The translations under genes were made by a program, and so were the position numbers. The notes below the pieces were generated by a model. That model was not told the DNA's origin and did no database searches. It saw nothing but the letters and a program-made list of their open reading frames with translations. Positions 7,495 through 28,832 of a stretch of DNA of 28,832 bases are shown piece by piece; the stretch's first letter is position 1, and every line of letters starts with the position of its first letter. Source of the stretch: a virus; the IMG/VR virus record IMGVR_UViG_3300048836_000061, positions 1 to 28,832 of that record. The stretch is one strand, 5' to 3'.

Positions 7495-8141
7495 CAGTCC
7501 GAAATCTGGTACGTGATCGTCGGCCCGTAACCACCGAGCTTGCCGATGCCTTTCTCGTTGTCCGAGGTGTTGAACGTCGCCGACGCGCCCGACAGTTCCC
7601 AGTAAGTCGTTTCCGAAACGCCGATCAGCACGATCCCCGGCGCGCTATTGACGACGCCCTGACACATGAACGTCTGCACGTAAGTGCCAGTCAGGCTCGG
7701 GATGATGTCCGCCGGGATATTTCTCAGGTACGGCACGTTGTCGGTCGTGCTCGCCGCCAGATATGGCAGGCGCACGCAGACGATATTGCCGTGCTTCGTC
7801 CAGTACGCCGTGCCAGAAGCAAGTAGCGTGCCGCCGCTCGCTGCCGTGGCGAGTTCAAGCGTGAAGTTGCCGCTCGACTTCACCCCGTAGCGCGCGTCGG
7901 CGGTCTGCCGGTTGAGCGCGTCGGTCGCGGCTGCTGCATCGGCGAGGCCGGTGATCTTCTTGTCGTTCCACGGCGTGTCGGCCGTGGGCACGCCGTTGCC
8001 GTTCCTGAGCACGCACAACGACAGGCCCGTGGCGATGCCCGCCATCTCGGTGTCGAGCTTCGAGATCGCGATCGGCGGGCTGGCCGCTTCGGCCGCCCAG
8101 GTGTAGGTGAGGCTATAGACACCGGAACCATCGAAACTCAT
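7494..8141 (-). CDS. Short tail-fibre-like protein
   Basis: 215 residues starting at the ATG at 8141 (MSFDGSGVYSLTYTWAAEAA), preceded by AGGAG 8 bases upstream; the longer frame to 8306 overlaps the plus-strand membrane gene and is rejected. The N-terminus SPPIAISKLDTEMAGIATGL, and the following PWNDKKITGLADAAAATDALNRQTAD, are familiar as the virion-anchoring and trimerisation region of short phage fibres. The C-terminal 110 residues are beta-rich (GNFTLELATAASGGTLLASGTAYW and onward) and probably form the receptor- or solvent-facing domain. Its place at the end of the structural block fits a host-recognition fibre. Receptor unknown. Confidence 0.75.
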   Translation of the reverse strand: MSFDGSGVYSLTYTWAAEAASPPIAISKLDTEMAGIATGLSLCVLRNGNGVPTADTPWNDKKITGLADAAAATDALNRQTADARYGVKSSGNFTLELATAASGGTLLASGTAYWTKHGNIVCVRLPYLAASTTDNVPYLRNIPADIIPSLTGTYVQTFMCQGVVNSAPGIVLIGVSETTYWELSGASATFNTSDNEKGIGKLGGYGPTITYQISD

Positions 8142-8174
8142 GGCAAAGCTCCTGAATATGCTAGATTCGCGGAC

Positions 8175-8414
8175 GTGGACGGCCTCGCCATCGTTCTGCG
8201 GCCCTTCGCGGCCGTGCTGCTGTTCGTCGGCGCGGTACTCCTCGGCAGGCTCATCACGCGAGCCCTGCCCGCCGGCCGGCTGAAGCGCTGGCTCACGACC
8301 CCGCACGCACTCATCCCGCGCAGCGACGCCGAGCGGCGCGACCTCACGGCCCCGCTCGTGCTGATCGTCGGTACGCTCGCGGTGCTGGCGTGGGCGCTCT
8401 GGTACACGTCCTAG
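8175..8414 (+). CDS. Plus-strand two-helix membrane protein
   Basis: 79-residue ORF starting at GTG 8175 on the strand opposite to both neighbours and filling the 270-base gap between them; its stop overlaps the 3' end of the ejection-type gene. It encodes two clear hydrophobic helices, LAIVLRPFAAVLLFVGAVLL and APLVLIVGTLAVLAWALW, separated by a basic loop (RALPAGRLKRWLT) and a hydrophilic segment. There is no evident ribosome-binding site. The clean two-helix pattern and the lack of any minus-strand gene in the gap favour a real gene, perhaps a late-acquired membrane or superinfection-exclusion protein. The alternative is a chance high-GC ORF. Confidence 0.5.
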   Translation: MDGLAIVLRPFAAVLLFVGAVLLGRLITRALPAGRLKRWLTTPHALIPRSDAERRDLTAPLVLIVGTLAVLAWALWYTS

Positions 8415-10081
8415 TTCCCCAGCAATCCAGCGACACTCGCGCGACGCAGGTACTGCGCGGCGACGTTGCGGTACGGCTCGCCCACCCGCTGCTTGGCGGC
8501 TTCCTCGAGCGCCTGCGCGAGCTTCTGGGCGGGTAACTGCCCCGCGGCCGCACGCCGGCCGGTCTGCGTTCCCACCATGCCGAGCAGCGCGGCCCCAGCC
8601 GGGACGGCGACTCCCGGTGCAGCCCCCGAGGCGGCGAGCGGCAGGCCAATGGCCGCGAGCCGTTGACCCGTGGGCGGGCTGCGCACGTTCATCGTCGCCG
8701 TCCCGGCCTCGCTCAGGTCGCGCAGCGGTCCACCCCCACCACGCGCATACGAACCCTTCCCCAAGCCGCGATTAGCGCCCGCCACGGCCTCGGAGAGCTT
8801 CGAGGGCGTGAACCCCCCGGGCATGTCCTTCGAGCGCGCCACGGCGTCCTCCAGTGTCTTGTAGATGCCGTAGCGGCTGTCCGCGGTCCTGAGCGCCTGC
8901 AATGCGTCGGGTGGTAGCTGTGACTCGAGCGTGTCGGTGAGCGCCCGCTCGCCGTTCTTGAGCAGATCGGCGGCGGCATCGTCGCCCTGCGTGGCCGCCC
9001 TGCGGGCCTCGGCGCGGATGTTCGATCGCAGGTTGAGCAGATCGTCGCTCGAGATCTGCGCGCGACCCTTACCGGGAAGTTGCGTGATCTGATTGTCGAG
9101 CCACCGGCCCACCGAGCGGCGCGTAGCGTCGTCGGCGCGCACGTTGCGATCGAGTGCTGCGCGCACGAGCAGACCCGGGCGGTTGCCGAAGCTCGCGAGC
9201 GGGATGTCGCCGCCCGCCTGACGCATCACACCCGGGTAGAGCGGGAAGCCCTTCGCCTGGTCGTAGAGCGGCTCGAAGGACTTGTAGGCCGCCTCGAGCA
9301 TCTCGTCCGCCGGTCCCTGCGCAATGCGTGCGCCCGGCGCCGCGGCGGTCTGGGTGGCCGCACGCTGGAACGAGTTCTGGGCGTTCTCACGCGCCCCGCG
9401 GATCACCGGACCCACGAGCGGCACGGACTGCCACGACTCTTCCATCTGGTTCAGGATCCCGCCGGGGTTCATCTGGCCGGGGGTGAGATCCACGCCCTGA
9501 GCGAGCAGCCGCTCGGCCTCGGGCGTGCGCTTGACGCCGTGCGCGAGCTTGCCGAGCCCGGCGCCGGCCGCCGGCAGCGCGCCACCGAACGCGCCGCCCA
9601 TGATCGCCCCGGCGCCCTTCTCGCCAGGATCGGCCATCAGCGCGCCCTGCGCGGCACCTTCGACCACGCCGCGCGCGATCGGGTTCGAGAGCACCTTCGC
9701 GCCCATGCCGACGCGCCCCACCACCCCGGCACCGCCCATCATCAGCGGCGCCGTCGCGGCCACTTCGCCGATCAGCGCGCCCGTCTTGCCCGCCCCCGTG
9801 GCGAGCAGCGGAGCGTCGAGTTGCTTCGCGTCGGCGAGTTGCTGGTCGCTCTGCAGGCCCACGAGGTTCGCGGCGTGCCGTCCGACGTTCATCATGCCCT
9901 GCCCGATGCCGGCCAATACCCGCTCCCCGGTGCCCATGTCGGCCGTTGGATCGTACTGTTCGACGGGTGCCTGCTCTGCAGCCATGCGATACGAGATCAG
10001 CGACAGCCGCTCGTAGGCTTCCATGTTCCCAGCGCGCTTCGCGTTGTCGCGCGCCTGCCGTACCTGCTCAAGCGTGTACAC
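8411..10081 (-). CDS. Large internal/ejection-type virion protein
   Basis: 556 residues, GTG start, one base from the stop of the gene upstream (TAA-C-GTG). The N-terminus is helical (MYTLEQVRQARDNAKRAGN), followed by long Gly/Ala-rich hydrophobic stretches (GALIGEVAATAPLMMGGAGV, GAGAIMGGAFGGALPAAGAG) of the kind seen in phage ejection proteins that insert into the cell envelope. The central part is helical (SSDDLLNLRSNIRAEARRA, AADLLKNGERALTDTL), with a short C-terminal basic helix. Position after the tail genes fits an injected DNA-channel protein as in P22- and BPP-1-like phages. Assigned by composition and context, not by a specific domain. Confidence 0.7.
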   Translation of the reverse strand: MYTLEQVRQARDNAKRAGNMEAYERLSLISYRMAAEQAPVEQYDPTADMGTGERVLAGIGQGMMNVGRHAANLVGLQSDQQLADAKQLDAPLLATGAGKTGALIGEVAATAPLMMGGAGVVGRVGMGAKVLSNPIARGVVEGAAQGALMADPGEKGAGAIMGGAFGGALPAAGAGLGKLAHGVKRTPEAERLLAQGVDLTPGQMNPGGILNQMEESWQSVPLVGPVIRGARENAQNSFQRAATQTAAAPGARIAQGPADEMLEAAYKSFEPLYDQAKGFPLYPGVMRQAGGDIPLASFGNRPGLLVRAALDRNVRADDATRRSVGRWLDNQITQLPGKGRAQISSDDLLNLRSNIRAEARRAATQGDDAAADLLKNGERALTDTLESQLPPDALQALRTADSRYGIYKTLEDAVARSKDMPGGFTPSKLSEAVAGANRGLGKGSYARGGGGPLRDLSEAGTATMNVRSPPTGQRLAAIGLPLAASGAAPGVAVPAGAALLGMVGTQTGRRAAAGQLPAQKLAQALEEAAKQRVGEPYRNVAAQYLRRASVAGLLGN

Positions 10082-16249: not shown

Positions 16250-17239
16250 TTATGCCTTCATCACGCCCTGGAGCTTCCGGTTCGAGCAGCAGAGATTTCC
16301 CTGCCAGATTACCGGAACCACCACCGCGTCCTGGTTGATCGAGCGCAGCTCGGGCATGATCTCCATGTCGGCGTCCTGATGCACCACCATCGACAGGTAG
16401 TCGGTGTTGATGAAGTAGCCGTGCGCGGAGGAAATGCCGCTCGCCGAACTGTCGTGGAACACGTCGGCGTTCTTGTACTTCATCGCCAGCATGCCCGCCT
16501 GACCGTCGTCATCCGGCGCGTAGCGCTTGAGGCTCGTCTGCGACTGCTCGAAGAACGTGAAGTACGTTTCATCCATGACAATCAAATCAGGATGGTCCGC
16601 ACCGCGCGTCAGGCGCAGGTACAGGGGCAGCATCAGCGACTCGATCGTGGTCGATCCCGGCGTGATCGCCGAGCCGCCCTGCAGCGGTGCCGCTGCGGAC
16701 TGCACGACGTTCTGCCAGAACGTGAACGTGGACGAGTCGATGCCGCCCACCGTGCCCGTGCCAGCGTCGGCGATGATCGACTGCAGGCCGCCGATCTGGT
16801 TCGACAGGGAGCCCGCCGAGTACAGATCCTCGGCCAGTCCGTTCGCCATCGACTTCTGCGCGTTCTTGATCTTCGTCTTGACGAGGTTGACGATGCGGTT
16901 CTCGCCGCTGTTCGAGCGGATCTCGAGGCCCGAGGCCGCGACGTTCACGCTCACCTGGCGCCACGGGTATTCCGCAGCCGACAGCACGTCCACCGCCTCG
17001 ACGTTGAGCGGGTCATAGCCGCTGTAGCGGGTGTACGTCGAGTTCTCGGCGTACTCCAGACCCTCAACGATCGACAGGCCGCCGTCTTCGCGACGGATCT
17101 TGCCCTTCTGCGTCAGGCGCCGGAACAGCGCGTTGTGGTTCGAGACGTTGTCCGCAACTTCCTTCTTGTGGTTGCGGTAGGTCGTGGTCACGAGTTCGGT
17201 GAACGTCGTGAACAGACTGGACTGACCGGGTGATGCCAT
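16250..17239 (-). CDS. Major capsid protein
   Basis: 329-residue coat protein of a family I recognise from short-tailed and some myo-type phages. The motifs are NALFRRLTQKGKIRREDGG, IVEGLEYAENSTYTRYSGYD, VSVNVAASGLEIRSNSGENR, and SLSNQIGGLQSIIADAGTGT followed by VGGIDSSTFTFWQNVVQ, with DLIVMDETYFTFFEQSQTSL in the C-terminal half; the overall layout suggests an HK97-type fold. It has the best ribosome-binding site in the late region (AAGGAGATC, 8 bases before ATG), lies directly after the scaffold gene and before the decoration gene, and is upstream of a strong terminator. Its function as shell subunit is secure; the precise family name is not given because no search was possible. Confidence 0.92.
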   Translation of the reverse strand: MASPGQSSLFTTFTELVTTTYRNHKKEVADNVSNHNALFRRLTQKGKIRREDGGLSIVEGLEYAENSTYTRYSGYDPLNVEAVDVLSAAEYPWRQVSVNVAASGLEIRSNSGENRIVNLVKTKIKNAQKSMANGLAEDLYSAGSLSNQIGGLQSIIADAGTGTVGGIDSSTFTFWQNVVQSAAAPLQGGSAITPGSTTIESLMLPLYLRLTRGADHPDLIVMDETYFTFFEQSQTSLKRYAPDDDGQAGMLAMKYKNADVFHDSSASGISSAHGYFINTDYLSMVVHQDADMEIMPELRSINQDAVVVPVIWQGNLCCSNRKLQGVMKA

Positions 17240-17287: not shown

Positions 17288-18343
17288 TCAGCCGTTGTGC
17301 AGGCTGCGGTACGTCTCGCGAATGGTGTCCTCCATCGAGCCGGGCTTGGCGGCGACCGGGGGTGTCCCGCGGCGCTGCACGTTGACGGCGGCGGCCTTTC
17401 TGGCGGCGGCGGCCTCGGCCGCTTCACGCGCACGTCGCTCGGCGTCTTGTTTCGCCATCAGCTTCGCGCGCGTTTCAGGGTGCGCCCAGATCGCCTGTTC
17501 GTAGGCTTTCTCGGGATCGCGTCCAGCCCTGACCAGTGCCACCACGTCCTCGAAGACGGCGTCCATGTACTCGTGCTTGGGGTCGCTCAGGAACTTCTGG
17601 GCGGCCGAGACACGTTCGGCATGCTCCGCTTCCTCGCGGGCGCGTTGGCTTTCGGTAATCGTCTGCTCGAGCTGCCCGAGGCGTTGTAGAACGGGGGCAA
17701 GTTCGGGAGCCGGCTGCTCGCCGCGGTGACGCGGGTCGGCCAGTTCGTTGAGACTGATACCGTAGCCCTGCGCGAGTTGCAACAAAGTGGACCGTTTCTG
17801 TTCAGGGCTGCCAGTCGCGAGCGCGCGCCAGGCGCCCATCACCTCGCGCACCACTTCCTTCGGCGTGCCGCCCAGTTGGCGGATCGTGTCGAAGTGCGGG
17901 CTGATGTCCTCGAACATCGAATGCCCGAACGCGGCGGCGTCCCGGTACTGTGCGATGCCCTTGTGGAAGTCCTCCTCGCGGCGGTGGATCTCCTGCTTCA
18001 CCGGCTCGGGGAGCGCGGCGAACTGGGCCGCGGTTTCCTTCTTCCAGGTATTCGGGGGCTGTTCCCACGGTTTCGGCTCGGGAGGCGGGGCGGCGGCAAT
18101 TTCAGGCGCCTCCGCCACCCCGTCCGTGTCGCCGGGCGCTGCGGCTGGTTCGGTGCGCAGGAACTTACCATCGGGGCCGCGGACGCGCTCGGGAGCGGGG
18201 TTCGTGAGCTTCTGGTACGTGTCGCGGATCGTGTCTTCCATCGACGGTTCGGCCTGAACCGGTGCGACGGGCTCAGGCGTAACGGTGGCCGGCGTGATGT
18301 CGGTCGGGGTAGCGTCAACAGGGGCGAGGGTTTCCTCGGTCAT
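17288..18343 (-). CDS. Scaffolding protein
   Basis: 351-residue acidic, Pro/Ala-rich and helical protein directly upstream of the coat gene, the standard place for a scaffold that shapes the procapsid and then leaves. The N-terminus is disordered (TEETLAPVDATPTDITPATV), then APPPEPKPWEQPPNTWKKE leads into a helical core (FAALPEPVKQEIHRREEDFH, FDTIRQLGGTPKEVVREVM) and a long coiled region (EQTITESQRAREEAEHAE; AERRAREAAEAAAARKAAA). The motif SMEDTIR[DE]TY occurs twice, at 34-43 and at 336-345 near the extreme C-terminus, the end that binds coat in other scaffolds. No protease is visible. It overlaps the zinc-ribbon gene by ATGA. Confidence 0.87.
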   Translation of the reverse strand: MTEETLAPVDATPTDITPATVTPEPVAPVQAEPSMEDTIRDTYQKLTNPAPERVRGPDGKFLRTEPAAAPGDTDGVAEAPEIAAAPPPEPKPWEQPPNTWKKETAAQFAALPEPVKQEIHRREEDFHKGIAQYRDAAAFGHSMFEDISPHFDTIRQLGGTPKEVVREVMGAWRALATGSPEQKRSTLLQLAQGYGISLNELADPRHRGEQPAPELAPVLQRLGQLEQTITESQRAREEAEHAERVSAAQKFLSDPKHEYMDAVFEDVVALVRAGRDPEKAYEQAIWAHPETRAKLMAKQDAERRAREAAEAAAARKAAAVNVQRRGTPPVAAKPGSMEDTIRETYRSLHNG

Positions 18344-18717
18344 GGCGTCTCCAGTGCCCGTCGTTTGGCGGGCGGCAGTTGGTGGTACGTCTCTCTGATC
18401 ACTTTCTCGAGCTTCGCGTCGGACTTCGCCTCACGCTCGGCGAGGCGTTTCTGCGCCTCCTGTTTCTCAGCAGCAAACCCTTCCCACGGGCGCGCTCCTG
18501 AGCGCTTCAGGTCATCCCGGCGCGCAGCCCGCCCCTCGATCCAGCGCCCCGTGGTGGGGCTCTGGTAGCCGGGGAGGTCGGCCTGCACGCCCGCGACCGA
18601 GATCACGATCCCCATGCGCTGCCCGTGGCAGGTGGGCGAATCGTGCCGCTCGGCGACCGTCCTGAAACCGTCTTCGCGCCGGCCGCACGTCGCGCAGGAC
18701 CACTCGTAAATCGGCAT
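18340..18717 (-). CDS. FmdB-type zinc-ribbon protein with scaffold-like tail
   Basis: 125 residues from ATG 18717 (TGATG overlap with the upstream gene); the longer frame to 19020 is out of frame with the upstream gene and is rejected. MPIYEWSCATCGRREDGF begins with the CxxC knuckle of FmdB-like zinc ribbons; the second knuckle is reduced to SPTCHG, so only three cysteines are clear. The middle (QSPTTGRWIEGRAARRDDL) is basic. The C-terminal part is a coil (AEKQEAQKRLAEREAKSDAK) ending EKVIRETYHQL, the same motif found twice in the adjacent scaffold. Similar zinc-ribbon genes precede scaffold genes in related phages. It may assist capsid assembly; the role is not known. Confidence 0.75.
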   Translation of the reverse strand: MPIYEWSCATCGRREDGFRTVAERHDSPTCHGQRMGIVISVAGVQADLPGYQSPTTGRWIEGRAARRDDLKRSGARPWEGFAAEKQEAQKRLAEREAKSDAKLEKVIRETYHQLPPAKRRALETP

Positions 18718-18953
18718 CAGGGCTTGGCGAGCGCCGCCCGGATGGCCGTGTTCTTGTCGGCGTCCGTATCGGCCGCGGCCACCTCGACCCAGCGCGAACG
18801 GCCTGCATACGGACCCACCTGCGGGGTGACGTAGTAGTGCGCCAGCACGGCCGAGTCGGCGACCCGTACCGTGTCGATGCCGCGTGAGGTAATCATGATC
18901 CCGGTCCCGTTCCCGCTCGCGTCGAGCAGGGCTTGCAGTGCAGCGTCGGCCAT
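18717..18953 (-). CDS. Small hypothetical protein (78 aa)
   Basis: 78 residues, MADAALQALLDASGNGTGIM then ITSRGIDTVRVADSAVLAHY, a helix followed by beta-strands (YYVTPQVGPYAGRSRWVEVA) and a final helix. It has a strong GAGGAGA ribosome-binding site and overlaps the zinc-ribbon start. No membrane segment or known motif is seen. Position between the repeat protein and the head genes suggests a virion or assembly role. Function unknown. Confidence 0.65.
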   Translation of the reverse strand: MADAALQALLDASGNGTGIMITSRGIDTVRVADSAVLAHYYVTPQVGPYAGRSRWVEVAAADTDADKNTAIRAALAKP

Positions 18954-18970
18954 CGTCGTATCTCCTCGGT

Positions 18971-21640
18971 TTAGAGCACTTCAGGGAGCAGCGCCTCGAT
19001 CGCTGCCCAGTCGTCGGCAATCATCTGCTCGCGCAGTTGTCGGTACAGCACGCGCAGCGCAATTTCAGCCTCGATCGCCCGCGCGTCCATCGCATCGGCC
19101 CGACGGCGTAGCGCCTCGGCGCGTGCCTCGATCGCTTCCACCCGCGCCGCTTCAGTCTCGCCAGTCGCGGGCGTGGGCGGGATCACGGGTGCGAGGATCG
19201 TTTCGGCCTGCGCGGCGGTTTCCGGGTCCGCGGTCAGTTCGCGGTAGATGTCGCGGATCTGCTCGGTGAGTTCTCGCTCGCGCTTGAGCTTCAGCGTCGC
19301 GCGCTTTTTGCTCCAGCCGGGATGGCGCGGGCGATCGTCGCCGCCGACCTTGCCGGTTTGCGGACCATTGCCTGCGCCGGTCAGCGCTGAGATGGTGCCG
19401 GCGCCGCTGCCGGCGTGCGGGCGAGCGCCAGTGCCACTGCCGACCACGATCCCGAGCGCGGCCGCGCCCGTGCCGATCCACGTCGTCGTGTAATCGCCCG
19501 TGCCCGTACCCGTGACGGCGATCGTGCCGGTGCCCGATCCTTTCGCACCACGGAGGCCCGTACCGCTGCCGGTGAGCGCCGGGAACGTGCCGGTGCCCGA
19601 ACCCACCCACGTCTGCGGCCCTTCGCTGGTGCCCGTCCCAGACCCAGTAGCGGCTGCAATCGTGCCCGCACCCGTGCTGGCGTGCGAGCGCAGGCCCGTA
19701 CCAGACCCGGTGAGCTCCGCAACTGTGCCAGCGCCCGAGCCTGTAAAGCCCTGCGTGACATCCCACGCAATCGCGCCGATCTCGACCTGGCTCACGCCAT
19801 TCGAGTGGCCGTAGACGTAGCACTCGACATCGGCCCCGGTCGGGTCGGACAGCAGGGCCGCGTCCCACGTCGCGGTGACGGTCTGCCCGGTGTCGCTGGT
19901 AACGGATGTGCCGCTGACCAGCGTTGCAACGAACGACCCGGCTTCGTACAGGGCGATATCGACGGTCGGGTTCGCGGTGTCGGTCTTGCGGACCAGCACC
20001 CGGAACGCTTGCAGGTCCGTGCCGGGGGTCGGGTTGGTCGTCGGCGTGGCGAAGCTGACAAGGATCCAAGTGTCCTCGACCCCGGTGCCGCTGCCCGTCA
20101 GGGCGGCAATCGTCCCGGCACCGCTGCCGGTGAATTCCTCTGGTGCGCCGACCGACGTACCCGTGCCAGAGCCGGTCAGGGCGGCAATCGTCCCCGTCCC
20201 GATGCCGTCCGTCATCAGCGGCGCGCACTGCCATGCACCACTCGCCCACGCACCCGGTGCCCATGCCCCGTGATCCCACGCACAGACCATTTCGACGCTT
20301 GAGCCGGTGCCGCTTCCGGTGAGCGCGGTGATCGTGCCGGCACCGCTGCCGGTGAATACGCCAGCCGACGTGCCGGTGCCAGCGCCAGTCAGGGCCGCGA
20401 TGACGCCTGCGCCCGTCCCGGCGCGTTCCTTTAGGCCCGTACCAGACCCGGTGGACGCGGCAATCGTGCCCGCGCCCGTCCCGTAGAACTGCCCAGCCGC
20501 CGCACCTGTACCCGAACCCGTCAGCGCCGTCAGCGTGCCTGCGCCGAGGCCCGAGCGAGCCTTCAGGCCCGTCCCGCTACCGGTCAGTGCAGCGAGGTCG
20601 CCCGCACCCGACCCGTAGAACTGGCTGTAGAACGTGCCGGTGCCGATGCCCGTCGCTGCGGTGACGGTTCCCGCACCCGTACCGCTACGGGCTTTGAGTC
20701 CAGTACCGCTGCCAGTCGAAGCGGCGAGTGTTCCAGCGCCTGTACCGGCGCGAGCCTTAGTGCCTGTGCCTGCGCCCGTTGAGGCAGCAATCGTGCCCGC
20801 ACCGCTGCCGGAATGCGTTGTGGCCGTAACCTCCCACGCGCCCGCAGCCCACGCGCCCGAGGCCCACGCACCCGGCATCCAGGCGTTGCCCTGATAGACC
20901 GACACGCTCGTGCCGGTTCCTGCGCCAGTTAGCGCGGAAAGCGTGCCGCTGCCAGATGCAAGGTTTGGCGACCCCCGCACGACATACGAAATGCCGCCCC
21001 ACGAATCGCCGGCAATGCCCCACGTCGTCTCAGCAACCGTTTCGCTGTTGGTCGTCTGCGCGTCACGGGTCGCAATACCGTGCGCGACCGCGCCCAAGTC
21101 CTGCGCCTGCCGGATCGTCCAGCCGGACGGGTTCGTGCCGCTGAGTGCGTCCGCATCCACGAACGCAAACCAGACCAGTCTGCCGCCGCCGTCATTGGAC
21201 GCGAGATCCCCAACGGGATTCTCGACCGTCGTATCGGTCGTGTTCGCACTCGATCTGGTGAGTACGTTCCCGATCGGGTCCGCAGCGTCGAATTCCCCGG
21301 CGGGAACTCGGATCACCGTCGAAGTCCACGATTCCGTGGCGGACGGGGTAAAGGTCAGCGTGCCTTGAGTCCACGCCCCGGTGCAGATCGTCCACCAGCA
21401 CTTACCGCCGACTTCCGTGCTGTTGGAATAGATCGGCGTGGCATTGATTTCAGACAGCGTTTCGCCGTTCGCCCCGGACGGCTCCGTAACGTCCGTGACG
21501 CTGGTGGAATCGTCCCATGCGATGTTCCAGATCAGCAGATCGCCGGTACTGGCTGCGGGATGCGGGACAGCCCAAGTCGCCCCTGCGGTATTACTACCGC
21601 CAACGGTACAGTCGCCAGCTTCGATCAGAGGCGCGGTCAC
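18971..21640 (-). CDS. Giant glycine-repeat surface protein with C-terminal coiled-coil module
   Basis: 889 residues with GTG start and a strong GGAGGTAAATC ribosome-binding site. Residues 1-227 form a beta-sandwich-like domain (ASTGDLLIWNIAWDDSTSV; WTSTVIRVPAGEFDAADPIG). Residues 229-761 are about 17 imperfect copies of a 20-26-residue unit, GSGAGTIAALTGSGTG plus a variable linker, interrupted twice by Trp-rich patches (NAWMPGAWASGAWAAGAWE at 252-270; AWDHGAWAPGAWASGAWQC at 454-472) and once by a beta-sandwich-like insert (521-631). Residues 768-889 are a charged coiled-coil region beginning RHPGWSKKRATLKLKRERE and ending AAIEALLPEVL. No enzyme motif is seen. It is probably a long flexible appendage or capsid/tail-surface spacer for host or glycan contact. 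The array is a likely site of unit gain and loss. Confidence 0.8.
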   Translation of the reverse strand: MTAPLIEAGDCTVGGSNTAGATWAVPHPAASTGDLLIWNIAWDDSTSVTDVTEPSGANGETLSEINATPIYSNSTEVGGKCWWTICTGAWTQGTLTFTPSATESWTSTVIRVPAGEFDAADPIGNVLTRSSANTTDTTVENPVGDLASNDGGGRLVWFAFVDADALSGTNPSGWTIRQAQDLGAVAHGIATRDAQTTNSETVAETTWGIAGDSWGGISYVVRGSPNLASGSGTLSALTGAGTGTSVSVYQGNAWMPGAWASGAWAAGAWEVTATTHSGSGAGTIAASTGAGTGTKARAGTGAGTLAASTGSGTGLKARSGTGAGTVTAATGIGTGTFYSQFYGSGAGDLAALTGSGTGLKARSGLGAGTLTALTGSGTGAAAGQFYGTGAGTIAASTGSGTGLKERAGTGAGVIAALTGAGTGTSAGVFTGSGAGTITALTGSGTGSSVEMVCAWDHGAWAPGAWASGAWQCAPLMTDGIGTGTIAALTGSGTGTSVGAPEEFTGSGAGTIAALTGSGTGVEDTWILVSFATPTTNPTPGTDLQAFRVLVRKTDTANPTVDIALYEAGSFVATLVSGTSVTSDTGQTVTATWDAALLSDPTGADVECYVYGHSNGVSQVEIGAIAWDVTQGFTGSGAGTVAELTGSGTGLRSHASTGAGTIAAATGSGTGTSEGPQTWVGSGTGTFPALTGSGTGLRGAKGSGTGTIAVTGTGTGDYTTTWIGTGAAALGIVVGSGTGARPHAGSGAGTISALTGAGNGPQTGKVGGDDRPRHPGWSKKRATLKLKRERELTEQIRDIYRELTADPETAAQAETILAPVIPPTPATGETEAARVEAIEARAEALRRRADAMDARAIEAEIALRVLYRQLREQMIADDWAAIEALLPEVL
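19358..20956 (-). repeat. Array of about 17 GSGAGTIAALTGSGTG-type coding repeats
   Basis: In-frame tandem repeat region inside the 889-residue protein. Each unit spells G(S/T)GAGT(I/L/V)xA(L/S)TG(S/A)GTG with a linker of 4-9 residues (often LKAR(A/S) or an aromatic such as QFY). The underlying DNA is similar from unit to unit (for example GTGCCGGCACCGCTGCCGG-type words on the plus strand). The array is broken by two Trp-rich patches and by one non-repeat domain at 19748-20080. Confidence 0.9.
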
Positions 21641-22038: not shown

Positions 22039-22559
22039 GAAATCACCTGATTGATGTATTGAGCCATTGCTTGCGGGACGATGGAGCCGCCGCCAGTCGG
22101 GGTGTAGGTCGCGTACACGCTGATGTCGCGGTCGAGGTCTGTGCCCCAGCCGTCTGTAGTCCATGTGGCCGGGGGCGGGTAACTCTGCCCCGCAGACGCA
22201 TCGTAATAATGCGTCACGGCAGAGTTTGTGTCGAAGTACACCTGGCCGTCGCCCGAGGCGCCATCGGACTGCACGACGATCATAATGTCCGTGATCGAAC
22301 TGACCGTGTATGACAGCGGGATTGTGCGCCACGCGGTCGTCCCTGCGGTCTGTGTCTGAGCCGTCCCGAGGGCAAGCCGGTTGCCGGTTGCCATATCGTA
22401 CAGGGCCGCATTTATCAGCTTATCGACCGTCGTGCAGATCGTGTACGCGGACACGGCTGTGATTTCATCCCCTGCCGTGAACGTCTCGGCACGACCGCAC
22501 AAGCGGCTCTCGATGTTTAGCGCCGTCGCGCCAACATCCGTTCTGCCTTTTGTTGCCAC
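22035..22559 (-). CDS. Beta-sandwich virion protein, possible carbohydrate-binding type
   Basis: 174 residues, GTG start sharing a base with the upstream TAG. The body looks like a jelly-roll: CGRAETFTAGDEITAVSAYT, KLINAALYDMATGNRLALGT, TAWRTIPLSYTVSSITDIMI and QVYFDTNSAVTHYYDASAGQ, ending in a Ser/Val helix (IVPQAMAQYINQVIS). The alternation of YD/W and GxG loops resembles carbohydrate-binding-module sandwiches in phage tail proteins, but no specific family is named here. It lies between the depolymerase candidate and another small beta protein, so a virion-surface role is likely. Confidence 0.65.
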   Translation of the reverse strand: MATKGRTDVGATALNIESRLCGRAETFTAGDEITAVSAYTICTTVDKLINAALYDMATGNRLALGTAQTQTAGTTAWRTIPLSYTVSSITDIMIVVQSDGASGDGQVYFDTNSAVTHYYDASAGQSYPPPATWTTDGWGTDLDRDISVYATYTPTGGGSIVPQAMAQYINQVIS

Positions 22560-24091
22560 TAAGAACGCACTCCAATGGTTTCAGTTCCGGTGATGTACGC
22601 GCCAGCCGGAATGGTTGCGTTCAACGTCCCGTTAAGGCTCAACAGGTCACGCCCGAGCGTCAGGGCAGGGGAACCGGCTTGCAGCGTGTAGTCCCGAGTC
22701 CCTGCGTTTGTGAACAGCGGATCACCAGTCGTGCCGTTCGTCTCGCGTCCGGTCGCCTGGAACGTAGCGAAGTTGCTGCCGTTGAACACGAGCGACGAAC
22801 TTGAATACAAGTTCCGATCGATCACATCGAACGGGTTCACGTCGTTCCCATCAGTCAGGATGCCCGCATAGTTGCTGGCAAAGATGTTGTTCTGAAGCAC
22901 GCAGCCATCGTAGCCGCTGCCTGTGTACGGCTTGAGATAGCACCCGCCATCTCCAGATGCAGACCCGCAATCGACAATCGTGTTGTTCACGAACCGGATA
23001 CTTCTCGGGGTGTCCGCTCCGGGTGGCGCGGCGCTGATGCCAAACCTGCCAGATTCGTACATGACGTTCTGGTAAACATCGACGTATCCCGGCACCGAGT
23101 CTTCGTTCACGCCCATCACGAGGATGTGCCGGACATCGACATCGTGAATGAGGTTGTGGTGAATCGTGCCCGGAGAGTTCTGCGGATACCCGCCCAAGAT
23201 GCCCTTCGGGCAGATGCCGCCATACGTGTCGTAAATCTCGTTATAGGCGATTTCGTAGTTCTCGCCGCCGTACATGAGAATGCCCCAACTATGACTTCCT
23301 CCAGTGTCATAGAAGTTGTAGATGCGGCAATCAATCACGTCGCAGTCGTCGCAGTTCTCGTACCGAACACCGGACCAGTTATCAGACCACTGCGCCTCTG
23401 CGCCACGAATCTCGCACTTGTGGATCTTGACCCCAGTGCATCCGTTCATTGTCACGAGAGCCTTTTCGGTTCTCGGCCCAGACTGGGCTGCGTCCACGCA
23501 AAGCCCGTGCCACTCAATGTAATCCTTATTCAGCGAGCCGAACGTCGAAAGGCCGGACCCGTCGACGGTGCCGGAATAACCGTTTCTCAACTCCGTCCTA
23601 TCGGAGTTTGACCACAGCCCGGCGAGGTGCACCGCTGCGTACTTGGCGACAATCCGAATCGGACTCCCTGATGACCCGGCGTTCGTAGGTTGCCAGCAAG
23701 GCAACCAGCTATCCGTTGACGGTGTGGATGCTGGTGAATACACACCCGGAAGCACCCCGATGATGTCCCCGGCTGTTGCTGTCGCAAGTGCCGTCGGGAA
23801 ATCCATCGCGTTCGCTTCGCTGGACCCGTTACCAGACCCGACATCCGCGGGCGCGGCGTAGATCGTCGGCGTGTAACCGCCGTATTCCGTGCCGATTTCG
23901 CCACTCGTGCCCGCGCCACTCCCCGTCGAAGCGGCAACCGTACCCGCACCGCTACCGGAGTACGCGCTGCCCGACCCGGACACCACGCACCAGTTGCCAT
24001 CCGGCGAAGCAGGATCGTCGTCAATGTCCGTGACCAGCCCCCCCAGCCCGGCCTTAGCGACAATCGCAGTCGGGTAGAGGGTCTGGGCCAT
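22559..24091 (-). CDS. Right-handed beta-helix protein, putative tailspike depolymerase
   Basis: 510 residues. The start MAQTLYPTAIVAKAGLGGLV and TDIDDDPASPDGNW is a familiar phage N-terminal attachment motif. It is followed by one copy of the GSGAGTVAASTGSGAGT repeat (45-61) and then a parallel beta-helix from about residue 75: the AMDFPTALATATAGDIIGVL entry, then coils with repeated N/D/G turns (VTMNGCTGVKIHKCEIRGAE, YENCDDCDVIDCRIYNFYD, PGTIHHNLIHDVDVRHILVM, IRFVNNTIVDCGSASG). The layout resembles pectate-lyase-like and tailspike enzymes that cut capsule or O-antigen. No catalytic residues can be assigned by eye. The ATG overlaps the upstream stop (TAATG). Confidence 0.8.
   Translation of the reverse strand: MAQTLYPTAIVAKAGLGGLVTDIDDDPASPDGNWCVVSGSGSAYSGSGAGTVAASTGSGAGTSGEIGTEYGGYTPTIYAAPADVGSGNGSSEANAMDFPTALATATAGDIIGVLPGVYSPASTPSTDSWLPCWQPTNAGSSGSPIRIVAKYAAVHLAGLWSNSDRTELRNGYSGTVDGSGLSTFGSLNKDYIEWHGLCVDAAQSGPRTEKALVTMNGCTGVKIHKCEIRGAEAQWSDNWSGVRYENCDDCDVIDCRIYNFYDTGGSHSWGILMYGGENYEIAYNEIYDTYGGICPKGILGGYPQNSPGTIHHNLIHDVDVRHILVMGVNEDSVPGYVDVYQNVMYESGRFGISAAPPGADTPRSIRFVNNTIVDCGSASGDGGCYLKPYTGSGYDGCVLQNNIFASNYAGILTDGNDVNPFDVIDRNLYSSSSLVFNGSNFATFQATGRETNGTTGDPLFTNAGTRDYTLQAGSPALTLGRDLLSLNGTLNATIPAGAYITGTETIGVRS
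23903..23959 (-). repeat. Single GSGAGT repeat unit shared with the 889-residue protein
   Basis: Encodes SGSGAGTVAASTGSGAGTS near the N-terminus of the beta-helix protein. It is one unit of the array found in the 889-residue protein (19358-20956), placed between the attachment motif and the beta-helix. Confidence 0.85.
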
Positions 24092-24471: not shown

Positions 24472-24598
24472 TTGCCTTTCCCTCAAATTCAAAATGGACG
24501 ACGGTGCCGTCCGGTTTGGTCACATACCCGCGTCCGTAAGCACGCAGCTCGAGTACGGGCTTCACGGGCTCCCGGTCGTCCTTCTGTTCGTCGTTCAT
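24446..24598 (-). CDS. Small hypothetical protein (50 aa)
   Basis: Short ORF filling the gap between the 234-residue protein and the 126-residue protein. It starts in an ATGA overlap with the former and overlaps the latter by 26 bases in another frame. MNDEQKDDREPVKPVLELRA then YGRGYVTKPDGTVVHFEFEG reads as an acidic tail followed by a compact beta-hairpin and looks like a genuine coding sequence. Function unknown. Confidence 0.6.
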   Translation of the reverse strand: MNDEQKDDREPVKPVLELRAYGRGYVTKPDGTVVHFEFEGKANGNDSDAQ

Positions 24599-25299
24599 GC
24601 CTGCCTCAGCAATTGCTCGATGGCCCGATAACTCGCCTGCCGCCGCGCCGTCAATAGCGTGGGCTGAAGTCGTTCAATCTCCCGCCGTGCGCGCTGCGCT
24701 TCGATCGCCGCCTCGGTCGCACGCTGCCGGGCCGCCTGCACGCGCTGCGCATTCGCCATCTCGGCGGCCATCTGCGCGGCCGTGCGTTGCGGTGGTGTAT
24801 CGACCCGGAGTGCCGCGGGTTCCTCGCCATTGAGCGCCACGCGAATGCTGCGCTCCATCGCCCGCTCGCGTGCGAGCTGGTCCATCGCCTGCTTGCGCTC
24901 CCAGCCGGGGTGCTTGAGCGGCCGGCGCACAGGTGCGGCCCCCGCCACGTCGAGCGACGGCCCGACCTGCCAGAGCAGGTTCAGCGAGGTCGTGACCGAT
25001 CCACCGCGCTGCCAGAGCAGCACGAGATCGCGCTCGACCGACGTGCCCGCCTCGGTGATGACGTTCCACGTCAGCGTGAGGTCCGACTCGACAGCCGTGA
25101 TCGGGTCCGCTTCGACCTGCCAGAGCAGCGAAAGGTCGGAATGCACGCCGCCGTGAACCGTCCAGAACAGCCCCAGGTCGCGCTCGACCGACGACAGCAC
25201 CTCGGCCGAGCCGTTGATGACGCCTTCGGTCGTGCTGGCCTCTCTCGCACCCCACGAGAGCGAGCCGCCGGTCAGTCTTGGACCCCAGGCTAGACTCAT
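24595..25299 (-). CDS. WQV-repeat virion protein with HPGW coiled-coil tail
   Basis: 234 residues. The N-terminal half contains five copies of an 11-residue strand, Vxx(D/S)LxLLWQV (residues 38-48, 52-62, 70-80, 88-98, 102-112), each separated by a short turn, so it should form a repetitive beta structure. Residues 127-234 are a charged helical tail starting LKHPGWERKQAMDQLARERA and ending YRAIEQLLRQA. The tail resembles the C-terminal part of the 889-residue protein, including the HPGW entry and an AIExLL end. The ATG overlaps the upstream stop and the gene is followed by an ATGA coupling. Function unknown; the shared tail suggests a common partner. Confidence 0.7.
   Translation of the reverse strand: MSLAWGPRLTGGSLSWGAREASTTEGVINGSAEVLSSVERDLGLFWTVHGGVHSDLSLLWQVEADPITAVESDLTLTWNVITEAGTSVERDLVLLWQRGGSVTTSLNLLWQVGPSLDVAGAAPVRRPLKHPGWERKQAMDQLARERAMERSIRVALNGEEPAALRVDTPPQRTAAQMAAEMANAQRVQAARQRATEAAIEAQRARREIERLQPTLLTARRQASYRAIEQLLRQA
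24964..25188 (-). repeat. Five VxxDLxLLWQV coding repeats
   Basis: Five in-frame repeats within the 234-residue protein: VERDLGLFWTV, VHSDLSLLWQV, VESDLTLTWNV, VERDLVLLWQR and VTTSLNLLWQV. Start-to-start spacings are 14, 18, 18 and 14 residues, a symmetrical arrangement. Confidence 0.88.
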
Positions 25300-27306: not shown

Positions 27307-28832
27307 TTAACCTATAGAGGACGGTCGAGTCGCCCACGTTGTCGGGTTGGCTCGCAAGAACGGCAAGATGCCGCTTGACCAGATAACGGCAGCCCGATAC
27401 TGCGTCCACGTCATGTCGGTGCGATCGAATGCCGCCTCGCCGTAGCTAGTGTTCGCAATGGGGTCGTACATGCGCACCCAAGTCATGTGCGTCTGCCGCT
27501 TCTTGACGCCTTCAACGTAGATTTCGGCTGGAATCCAGTAGCCTTCCTTCGACCCGTAGACCGGATCCTGGTTGTCGTTCCAGTACGGGATCACGCCGAG
27601 ATACGACGTGCCGAGTTGGTTCCCCCAGTCGTCTCCGCGACCGAAGTACACGTCGTCCGAGTCTGTCTTCTGCGCTGCACCGGGGTTGCCGGGGTATCCA
27701 TCCGGCCACGGGTACTGATCCGTGCCACCAGCACCGCAACCTAGTGCGGCGAGCGTCGGGAACAACTGCCCGATGTTGTTCAACCACGACAGCGCCCCGT
27801 AGCAAACCGTAGTCGGGAAGTACGGCTTGATCGTCGTGAGCGTGTTCGCGATGGCCGTCCGCAGAGCCGGTTCGTGCGACCCAACAGGCAGACCGACGAC
27901 GCTGAACGACGACTCGCAGAACGGGCGGAAACCCTCGAATGCTGGATGAGAGTCGAACCGCTGACCGATGGCGATGCACAGCGCGTCGAGGCGAGCACGA
28001 ACGATCGGCTCCCACTCGCGATAGACGCCGCCGATTCCGCCATTGACTGACGCTATTCCGTACCCGTAGGTGCCGTTGAGCGCATAGTCCGGGGTCGCGG
28101 TCGTCCGCCATGCATCGCTATAGGTACTCCACCGCCCGAAGAACGGCCAGAAAAGCATTTTCTTGCCGCGAGCGTGCAGATAGTCCAGTTCCGTCTGCAA
28201 CCAGTCGAGGTTGTACACCCCATAGCTCGGCTCCATCAGCCGCCAGCCCCACCGCAGCATCAGGTTCACGCCCTTGATGCACGACTCGCCGGCAATGGCG
28301 TCGTACATCGCAAAGCGTCCAGCCTGTGTGTCCCCACCGCCTGTCCAGTCGTAGACGGTCATGTAGTGGCCGGGTGTGAACTTGACCTCCGACCCCGCCC
28401 CAACGGTCACGGAGGACGCCGCTTCGGCGAAAAGGATCCCATCACTTGCCCGCACGACGATATTGCCCGACGTACCGGCCGCCGCCGCCGTAACCGTTAC
28501 GAGCCCCGTGCTCGCATTGATCGTGATGCCGGCGCGCGTGGTCATGAGGCTGTAGAACACCGACCCGCCCTCGGGGTCCGTGGCCGCAAACTGAATCGTG
28601 CCGCCCGTGCTGGCGATGCTCGCGCTCGTCGGCGCCACCGTGAACACCGGGGCGCTGTTGCCCGCCGCGATGATCGTCGCCGTGCCGATCGTGCCCGTTT
28701 GTGTGGCGGTCCACGTCGCGAGCGACCAGGTGTAGTCCTGACCGCTGTCGGCGAGCCCGAACGAGCCGCGCACCCAGCGTGAGGCGTCCGAGTTCTCGAA
28801 CCGGATGTACCAGTTCGCGTCCGGGGTCGCCG
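27307..28832 (-). CDS. Glycosidase-like virion protein with Ig/cadherin-like domain (5' truncated)
   Basis: The frame stays open to the right edge, beyond the GTG at 28773, so the true N-terminus lies outside the window; the visible start reads ATPDANWYIRFENSDASRWV. Next comes a cadherin-like/putative Ig domain (APVFTVAPTSASIASTGGTI, FAATDPEGGSVFYSLMTTRA, ITINASTGLVTVTAAAAG). The rest looks like a TIM-barrel glycoside hydrolase: KGVNLMLRWGWRLMEPSYGV then YNLDWLQTELDYLHARGKKM, FWPFFGRWS, a GFRPFCESSFSV segment with a candidate catalytic Glu, and a later WIPAEIYVEG. Such enzymes on virions degrade surface glycans. The GH family and substrate cannot be named from the sequence. Confidence 0.75.
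   Translation of the reverse strand, partial: ATPDANWYIRFENSDASRWVRGSFGLADSGQDYTWSLATWTATQTGTIGTATIIAAGNSAPVFTVAPTSASIASTGGTIQFAATDPEGGSVFYSLMTTRAGITINASTGLVTVTAAAAGTSGNIVVRASDGILFAEAASSVTVGAGSEVKFTPGHYMTVYDWTGGGDTQAGRFAMYDAIAGESCIKGVNLMLRWGWRLMEPSYGVYNLDWLQTELDYLHARGKKMLFWPFFGRWSTYSDAWRTTATPDYALNGTYGYGIASVNGGIGGVYREWEPIVRARLDALCIAIGQRFDSHPAFEGFRPFCESSFSVVGLPVGSHEPALRTAIANTLTTIKPYFPTTVCYGALSWLNNIGQLFPTLAALGCGAGGTDQYPWPDGYPGNPGAAQKTDSDDVYFGRGDDWGNQLGTSYLGVIPYWNDNQDPVYGSKEGYWIPAEIYVEGVKKRQTHMTWVRMYDPIANTSYGEAAFDRTDMTWTQYRAAVIWSSGILPFLRANPTTWATRPSSIG

Follow-up and report, generated by a model that had tools for sequence, protein, structure and literature searches.

The scaffolding protein of this phage appears to carry the same short coat-docking helix at both of its ends. 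We give a probability of about 0.83 to the reading in which this motif docks on the major coat protein, the scaffold acts as a single-chain double hook, and a charge pair between helix and coat confers specificity. Scaffolds are mostly disordered in structures, so the way in which they join the coat, and the way in which proteins enter the procapsid interior, are hard to see. Here, sequence co-variation alone, with at least a dozen independent switches, points to a residue-level contact between scaffold and coat. The window analysed is a virus record of 28,832 bases, and all motif sites within it are on the minus strand. Its head genes are as follows:

18340 to 18717, minus strand: small zinc-ribbon protein between the portal region and the scaffold (PF09723-like zinc ribbon, below the Pfam cut-off; position conserved in relatives)
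17288 to 18343, minus strand: candidate scaffolding protein, 351 aa, directly upstream of the coat, homologue of Mx8/MW202489 p47 (gene order, tblastn, AF2)
16250 to 17239, minus strand: major coat protein, 329 aa, HK97 fold (phrog_9953 major head protein, E 8e-81; AF2 and Foldseek)

The window has both the coat match and the gene order (small protein, scaffold p47, coat) of a phrog_9953-type (Mx8-like) head module. The AF2 model of the coat matches solved HK97-fold capsid proteins (best 6j3q, E 3e-11, Foldseek). No match naming a scaffold was returned by PHROG, Pfam or PDB searches; the candidate was identified by its position next to the coat, its all-helical model and its homology to p47, which it matches by tblastn. 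The model has an all-helical core, with pLDDT >90 across most of residues 91 to 320, and low-confidence arms with separate end helices at 35 to 47 and 337 to 350. Apparent scaffold duplication was seen in one relative, L165, which has a scaffold before the coat (SLREEILSHM) and also a second scaffold-like protein (L165:2-1069, ending ...AVWANPGLRRALAQQ...SLRDEILAHAGGF) upstream of a 740-aa portal-sized gene.

A six-frame search of the 28.8 kb window returned exactly four matches to IR[DE]xYxxL. The original prediction had listed these four sites as a docking motif for one shared partner, for example coat or portal, and all four translate as written, at the correct coordinates and on the minus strand. 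Two are in the scaffold; the others are EKVIRETYHQL in the zinc-ribbon protein (18376-18408) and TEQIRDIYREL in an 889-aa protein (19235-19267). With one further candidate, the copies are:

18206 to 18244, minus strand: predicted N-terminal docking helix SMEDTIRDTYQKL, scaffold residues 34-46 (AF2 helix 35-47 between low-confidence linkers)
17300 to 17338, minus strand: predicted C-terminal docking helix SMEDTIRETYRSL, scaffold residues 336-348 (AF2 helix 337-350; charge-complementary to coat 121)
18376 to 18414, minus strand: third copy KLEKVIRETYHQL, near the C-end of the zinc-ribbon protein (score 36 against the scaffold's own motif)
19235 to 19273, minus strand: fourth and less certain copy ELTEQIRDIYREL, within the C-terminal module of the 889-aa protein (score 29)
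24823 to 24861, minus strand: possible fifth copy AMERSIRVALNG, within the module of a 234-aa protein that is homologous to the module of the 889-aa protein (HMM seed member; score only 13)

Scores are for 13-mers compared with the scaffold's own two copies. Among 300 shuffled proteomes, the best score per proteome had a mean of 21.7, a 95th percentile of 27 and a maximum of 35. On this scale the zinc-ribbon copy clearly exceeds chance, the 889-aa copy exceeds it modestly, and the fifth candidate, taken alone, falls within noise. These chance figures are post hoc, because the pattern was derived from the same four sites; the independent test is conservation in relatives. The exact pattern proved to be only the local dialect of a more general form, [STD]-h-x-[DE]-x-[LIVM]-x-x-x-[FYLWA], which describes a capped amphipathic helix. 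Dialects include MEDTIR (the window), SLRD..., DRRxLLxQF, TTRE... and WxDxL. An exact-pattern search of relatives had suggested a motif confined to near-identical phages, a view that was dropped after the general register was recognised.

We find that the two scaffold helices are conserved as a pair. Relatives were gathered through coat searches of viral, prophage and cultured-phage loci, giving 191 scaffolds that formed 135 clusters at 65% identity, of which 130 clades were kept. A motif model of 13 columns was trained only on the last 35 residues of the scaffolds and then tested on the first 90, against shuffles. It found an N-end match in 96 of 130 clades at p≤0.01 and in 109 at p≤0.05; the N copy was undetected at p≤0.05 in 21 clades, some of which have misplaced starts. 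A search of related phages had been suggested as a check on the motif, and in most of their scaffold clades the helix is indeed present at both ends. For example, the N and C copies are SLRESLAAAA and SVRGSLEAAW in Mx8 p47, and SLRGSLEAAM and SLRGTIEAAW in Mx9.

The two copies also co-vary. Similarity between a scaffold's own N and C copies was 23.8, compared with 12.3 for permuted pairs and 18.5 for pairs within a dialect. When each deep coat clade (of 12, 25 or 42) was represented by a single phage drawn from it, N-C similarity was 20-23 versus about 10.7 permuted (p<0.002 in every draw). Motif positions 2, 5, 6, 7, 9 and 10, mostly on one helical face, co-vary; positions 4 and 8 do not. In a nearest-relative control (median 41% identity), a scaffold's own N-C pairing was not better (46 versus 42, not significant), and concerted change is thus visible only on deep branches. 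Recent duplication or gene conversion, rather than shared function, could also make the ends alike, and identical codons at identical residues are in slight excess between copies (42% versus 36% expected). We find this explanation hardly credible. The codon test shows little sign of gene conversion, and the window's two scaffold copies show four synonymous differences at residues that are identical between them. Furthermore, co-variation is limited to part of the helix surface, and copy pairs occur in about 100 divergent clades.

Two residues of the coat emerge as the predicted partners of the helix:

16877 to 16879, minus strand: coat K121, predicted partner of motif position 3 (charge contrasts; within helix 113-139)
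16901 to 16903, minus strand: coat E113, predicted partner of motif positions 7 and 11 (contrasts)

Both lie within helix 113-139 of the AF2 coat model, with K121 at the start of the HK97 spine helix. In a partial-correlation scan that related coat columns to motif similarity while correcting for overall coat identity, K121 ranked first of 308. Arginine at position 3 pairs with E or D at coat 121; where position 3 is acidic, coat 121 is K, A, T, S or Q. There were no same-sign pairs between motif position 3 and coat 121 in 129 phages, and three same-sign cases for the N copy. Charge switching was then counted on edge-disjoint contrasts, using a coat tree computed with the spine helix and N-arm removed: 12 of the 16 independent contrasts were complementary, 4 were unchanged and none was opposite (family-wise P = 0.0002 over all columns). 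The switches include TLEE with K in L117, mixed with Q in L086, acidic with A in L079, L053, ppBj and L200, a pairing with S in BUCT555, and Q with T in L025. For motif positions 7 and 11 the scan selects coat 113 in each case (contrasts of 16 versus 4 and 11 versus 1; family-wise P = 0.008 and 0.028), and no significant coat column was found for positions 4, 8 or 12. Since position 3 pairs with 121 and position 11 with 113, the data fit an antiparallel helix pair. In L124 and L132, which have coat D121, the N copy is SLRD-type and the C copy DRR-type; of the two copies here, the C copy seems to follow the coat more closely.

Coat and portal had both been put forward as the shared partner. Charge switching favours the coat, and portal columns show no comparable signal. 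Motif similarity does correlate with coat identity overall (r 0.59), and the scaffold of P22 also touches its portal (PMC12005531), as might be expected if the helices docked on some other head protein, such as the portal, and coat 121 co-varied by descent only. This is very improbable, because the 12-to-0 result comes from contrasts that remove most of the effect of descent, and because control columns reached only 6 in the portal and 5-7 overall for portal, p50, p51 and p52, whereas on those pairs coat 121 reached 11-12. Alternatively, the end helices could bind each other during scaffold self-assembly and not the coat, N-C co-variation then reflecting mutual fit; P22 scaffold is known to form dimers and tetramers (PMC12005531). 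We consider this improbable, as the charge at position 3 tracks the coat residue and not an opposite charge in the other copy, and both copies usually have the same charge at this position, which would make them repel.

Docking of the end helices on the coat is therefore strongly supported for both scaffold copies, as a prediction from sequence comparison. Judged by fold, the coat 113/121 region would correspond to the SPP1 region in which density for the scaffold touches both the N-arm helix and the spine helix at its amino end; D109N in that region impairs assembly (PMC6813328). In the open-access literature searched, we found no precedent for a twin-ended scaffold motif or for scaffold-coat covariation, which does not imply absence elsewhere.

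The helix may not be exclusive to the scaffold. The small protein encoded upstream of it is a zinc ribbon in the window and of a 'VGNE' type elsewhere. PHROG and Pfam scans left these small proteins unnamed, except for the sub-cut-off zinc ribbon and phrog_21669 (unknown function). In many phages a lineage-matched copy of the motif lies near their C-end (p 0.002 with 30 clades, 0.032 with 17 and 0.09 with 10), the signal fading with deeper clade cuts. Matched copies were found in L098 (TIKRDLLKAWDE versus TIRESLLQTWDE), and also in L079, L135, L090 and L092. When position 3 of the small protein was compared with coat 121 in 40 scored cases, 27 were basic/acidic, none was acidic/acidic and one was basic/basic (L117, R with coat K121). 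In the window's own clade, position 3 of the zinc-ribbon helix is D or E except in L023 (H) and L025 (R; coat T121), and it is acidic in nearly all K121 phages.

The zinc-ribbon copy was judged a coincidence early on, a view revised after the third-copy scan and the lineage test. We would call it unlikely that only the scaffold copies are real and that those of the zinc-ribbon and 889-aa proteins are coincidental amphipathic helices. The patterns were chosen post hoc, several zinc-ribbon relatives (L015, L018, L011) are without the exact motif, and the 889-aa score of 29 is barely above the 95% shuffle level. Against this stand the lineage-matched copies and the zero of 40 cases that pair acidic with acidic. 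Thus, the proposal that the zinc-ribbon copy is a docking motif retains moderate support from matched C-end copies and a position-3 charge compatible with coat 121, and the zinc-ribbon/VGNE protein probably docks at the same kind of coat site.

Other proteins of relatives carry similar stretches. L092 encodes a 208-aa protein (L092:6169-6792) that starts MGSVREELQAAFAEKK, matching its scaffold motif SIREEIEAAR, and is preceded by a zinc-ribbon protein carrying VRESLKAAIAKHT. In L219, two different proteins (L219:6545-7039 and 7736-8521) have a common N-terminal tag, MYNNFNNNEE..ETVRQTLERVMREK. The L219 tags resemble that phage's own scaffold motif and are possible head-targeting tags.

The remaining copies belong to two proteins with related modules:

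18971 to 21640, minus strand: 889-aa glycine-rich repeat protein with a C-terminal GGDD..H.GW.K module (module homologues)
24595 to 25299, minus strand: 234-aa protein with an HPGW module related to the 889-aa module (HMM seed member)

Homologues of the module were found in L011, L012, L015, L018, L022, L023, L025, L027 and L032, and in L015, L018, L022, L023, L025 and L027 the GGDD..H.GW.K module is in proteins at the same place. A search of the phages collection gave no match to the module. The profile of the module matches scaffold motifs as well, with a best E of 0.003 in L007; this overlap is suggestive only. The original claim of a docking motif here has weak support: the module was seen only in the window's clade, position 3 is T in the window and the match is part of a longer helical region. 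Docking by the 889-aa protein is the use of which we are least sure. The 234-aa protein has internal SDLSLLWQV-type repeats, with its HPGW module C-terminal. Repeats of the GSGAGTIAALTGSGTG type occur in the 889-aa protein and near the start of a 510-aa beta-helix-like protein (22559-24091). A possible glycosidase is the open-ended protein at 27307-28830, which matches Glyco_hydro_42 weakly (E 0.018, below cut-off).

We propose that the scaffold consists of a helical core and flexible arms, each arm ending in the same capped amphipathic helix. On the procapsid's inner face, each end helix would pack in antiparallel orientation on the first part of the coat spine helix, with the charge pair between position 3 and coat 121 giving specificity and positions 7 and 11 lying near coat 113. 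The arms would let one scaffold chain bridge two coat subunits. The same helix could place the zinc-ribbon protein on the inner shell, where nucleation beside the portal is the simplest guess at its role, from gene position. More tentatively, a lineage-specific docking code might direct the scaffold, which is tagged twice, and several further proteins to places within the growing procapsid, a single amphipathic helix being read by the coat spine helix via a switchable charge pair. The further tagged proteins would be the zinc-ribbon/VGNE protein, the repeat-protein modules and the N-tagged proteins in L219 and L092; we hold this wider reading to be somewhat doubtful. Our findings lend themselves to a simple test, through two residues, in a cultured phage family (Mx8), and they offer a means of predicting what other gene products are taken into the head.

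Several known systems share parts of this arrangement. In P22, gp8 has a short C-terminal helical element held by charge pairs on the inner shell, as is predicted here, where R293/K296 of a helix-loop-helix pair with coat D14/E15/E18 (PMC9965877, PMC12005531); there, however, it is a single C-terminal element on the coat N-arm, whereas here a single capped helix is present in two copies and linked to the spine helix. Short tags common to more than one protein entering the prohead core are known from the T4 capsid targeting sequence, but that tag is N-terminal, about 10 aa, and found in IPII and IPIII and not on the scaffold (PMC9958956). The RIIK helix-and-hook of 80alpha SP and SaPI1 CpmB is one C-terminal coat-docking motif used by two proteins (PMC5644958). 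In that case a satellite competes with the phage, whereas here the second user seems to be a small protein of the phage itself, and RIIK was not found among the relatives' listed scaffold C-ends. The p46-p47-coat cassette of Mx8 has the same gene order, with the p47 helices given above and E at coat 121; it differs in its R-type dialect, compared with the window's acidic/K121, and in a p46 without a recognisable zinc ribbon. SPP1 gp11-gp13 resembles the contact predicted for the window in its scaffold hook at the coat N-arm helix and amino end of the spine helix, and its dimers have been proposed as double hooks between capsomeres (PMC6813328). In gp11 the hook forms one end of a dimer, whereas here one chain has the same helix at both ends. 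By analogy, the window's scaffold may be a one-chain form of the dimeric double hook proposed for SPP1.
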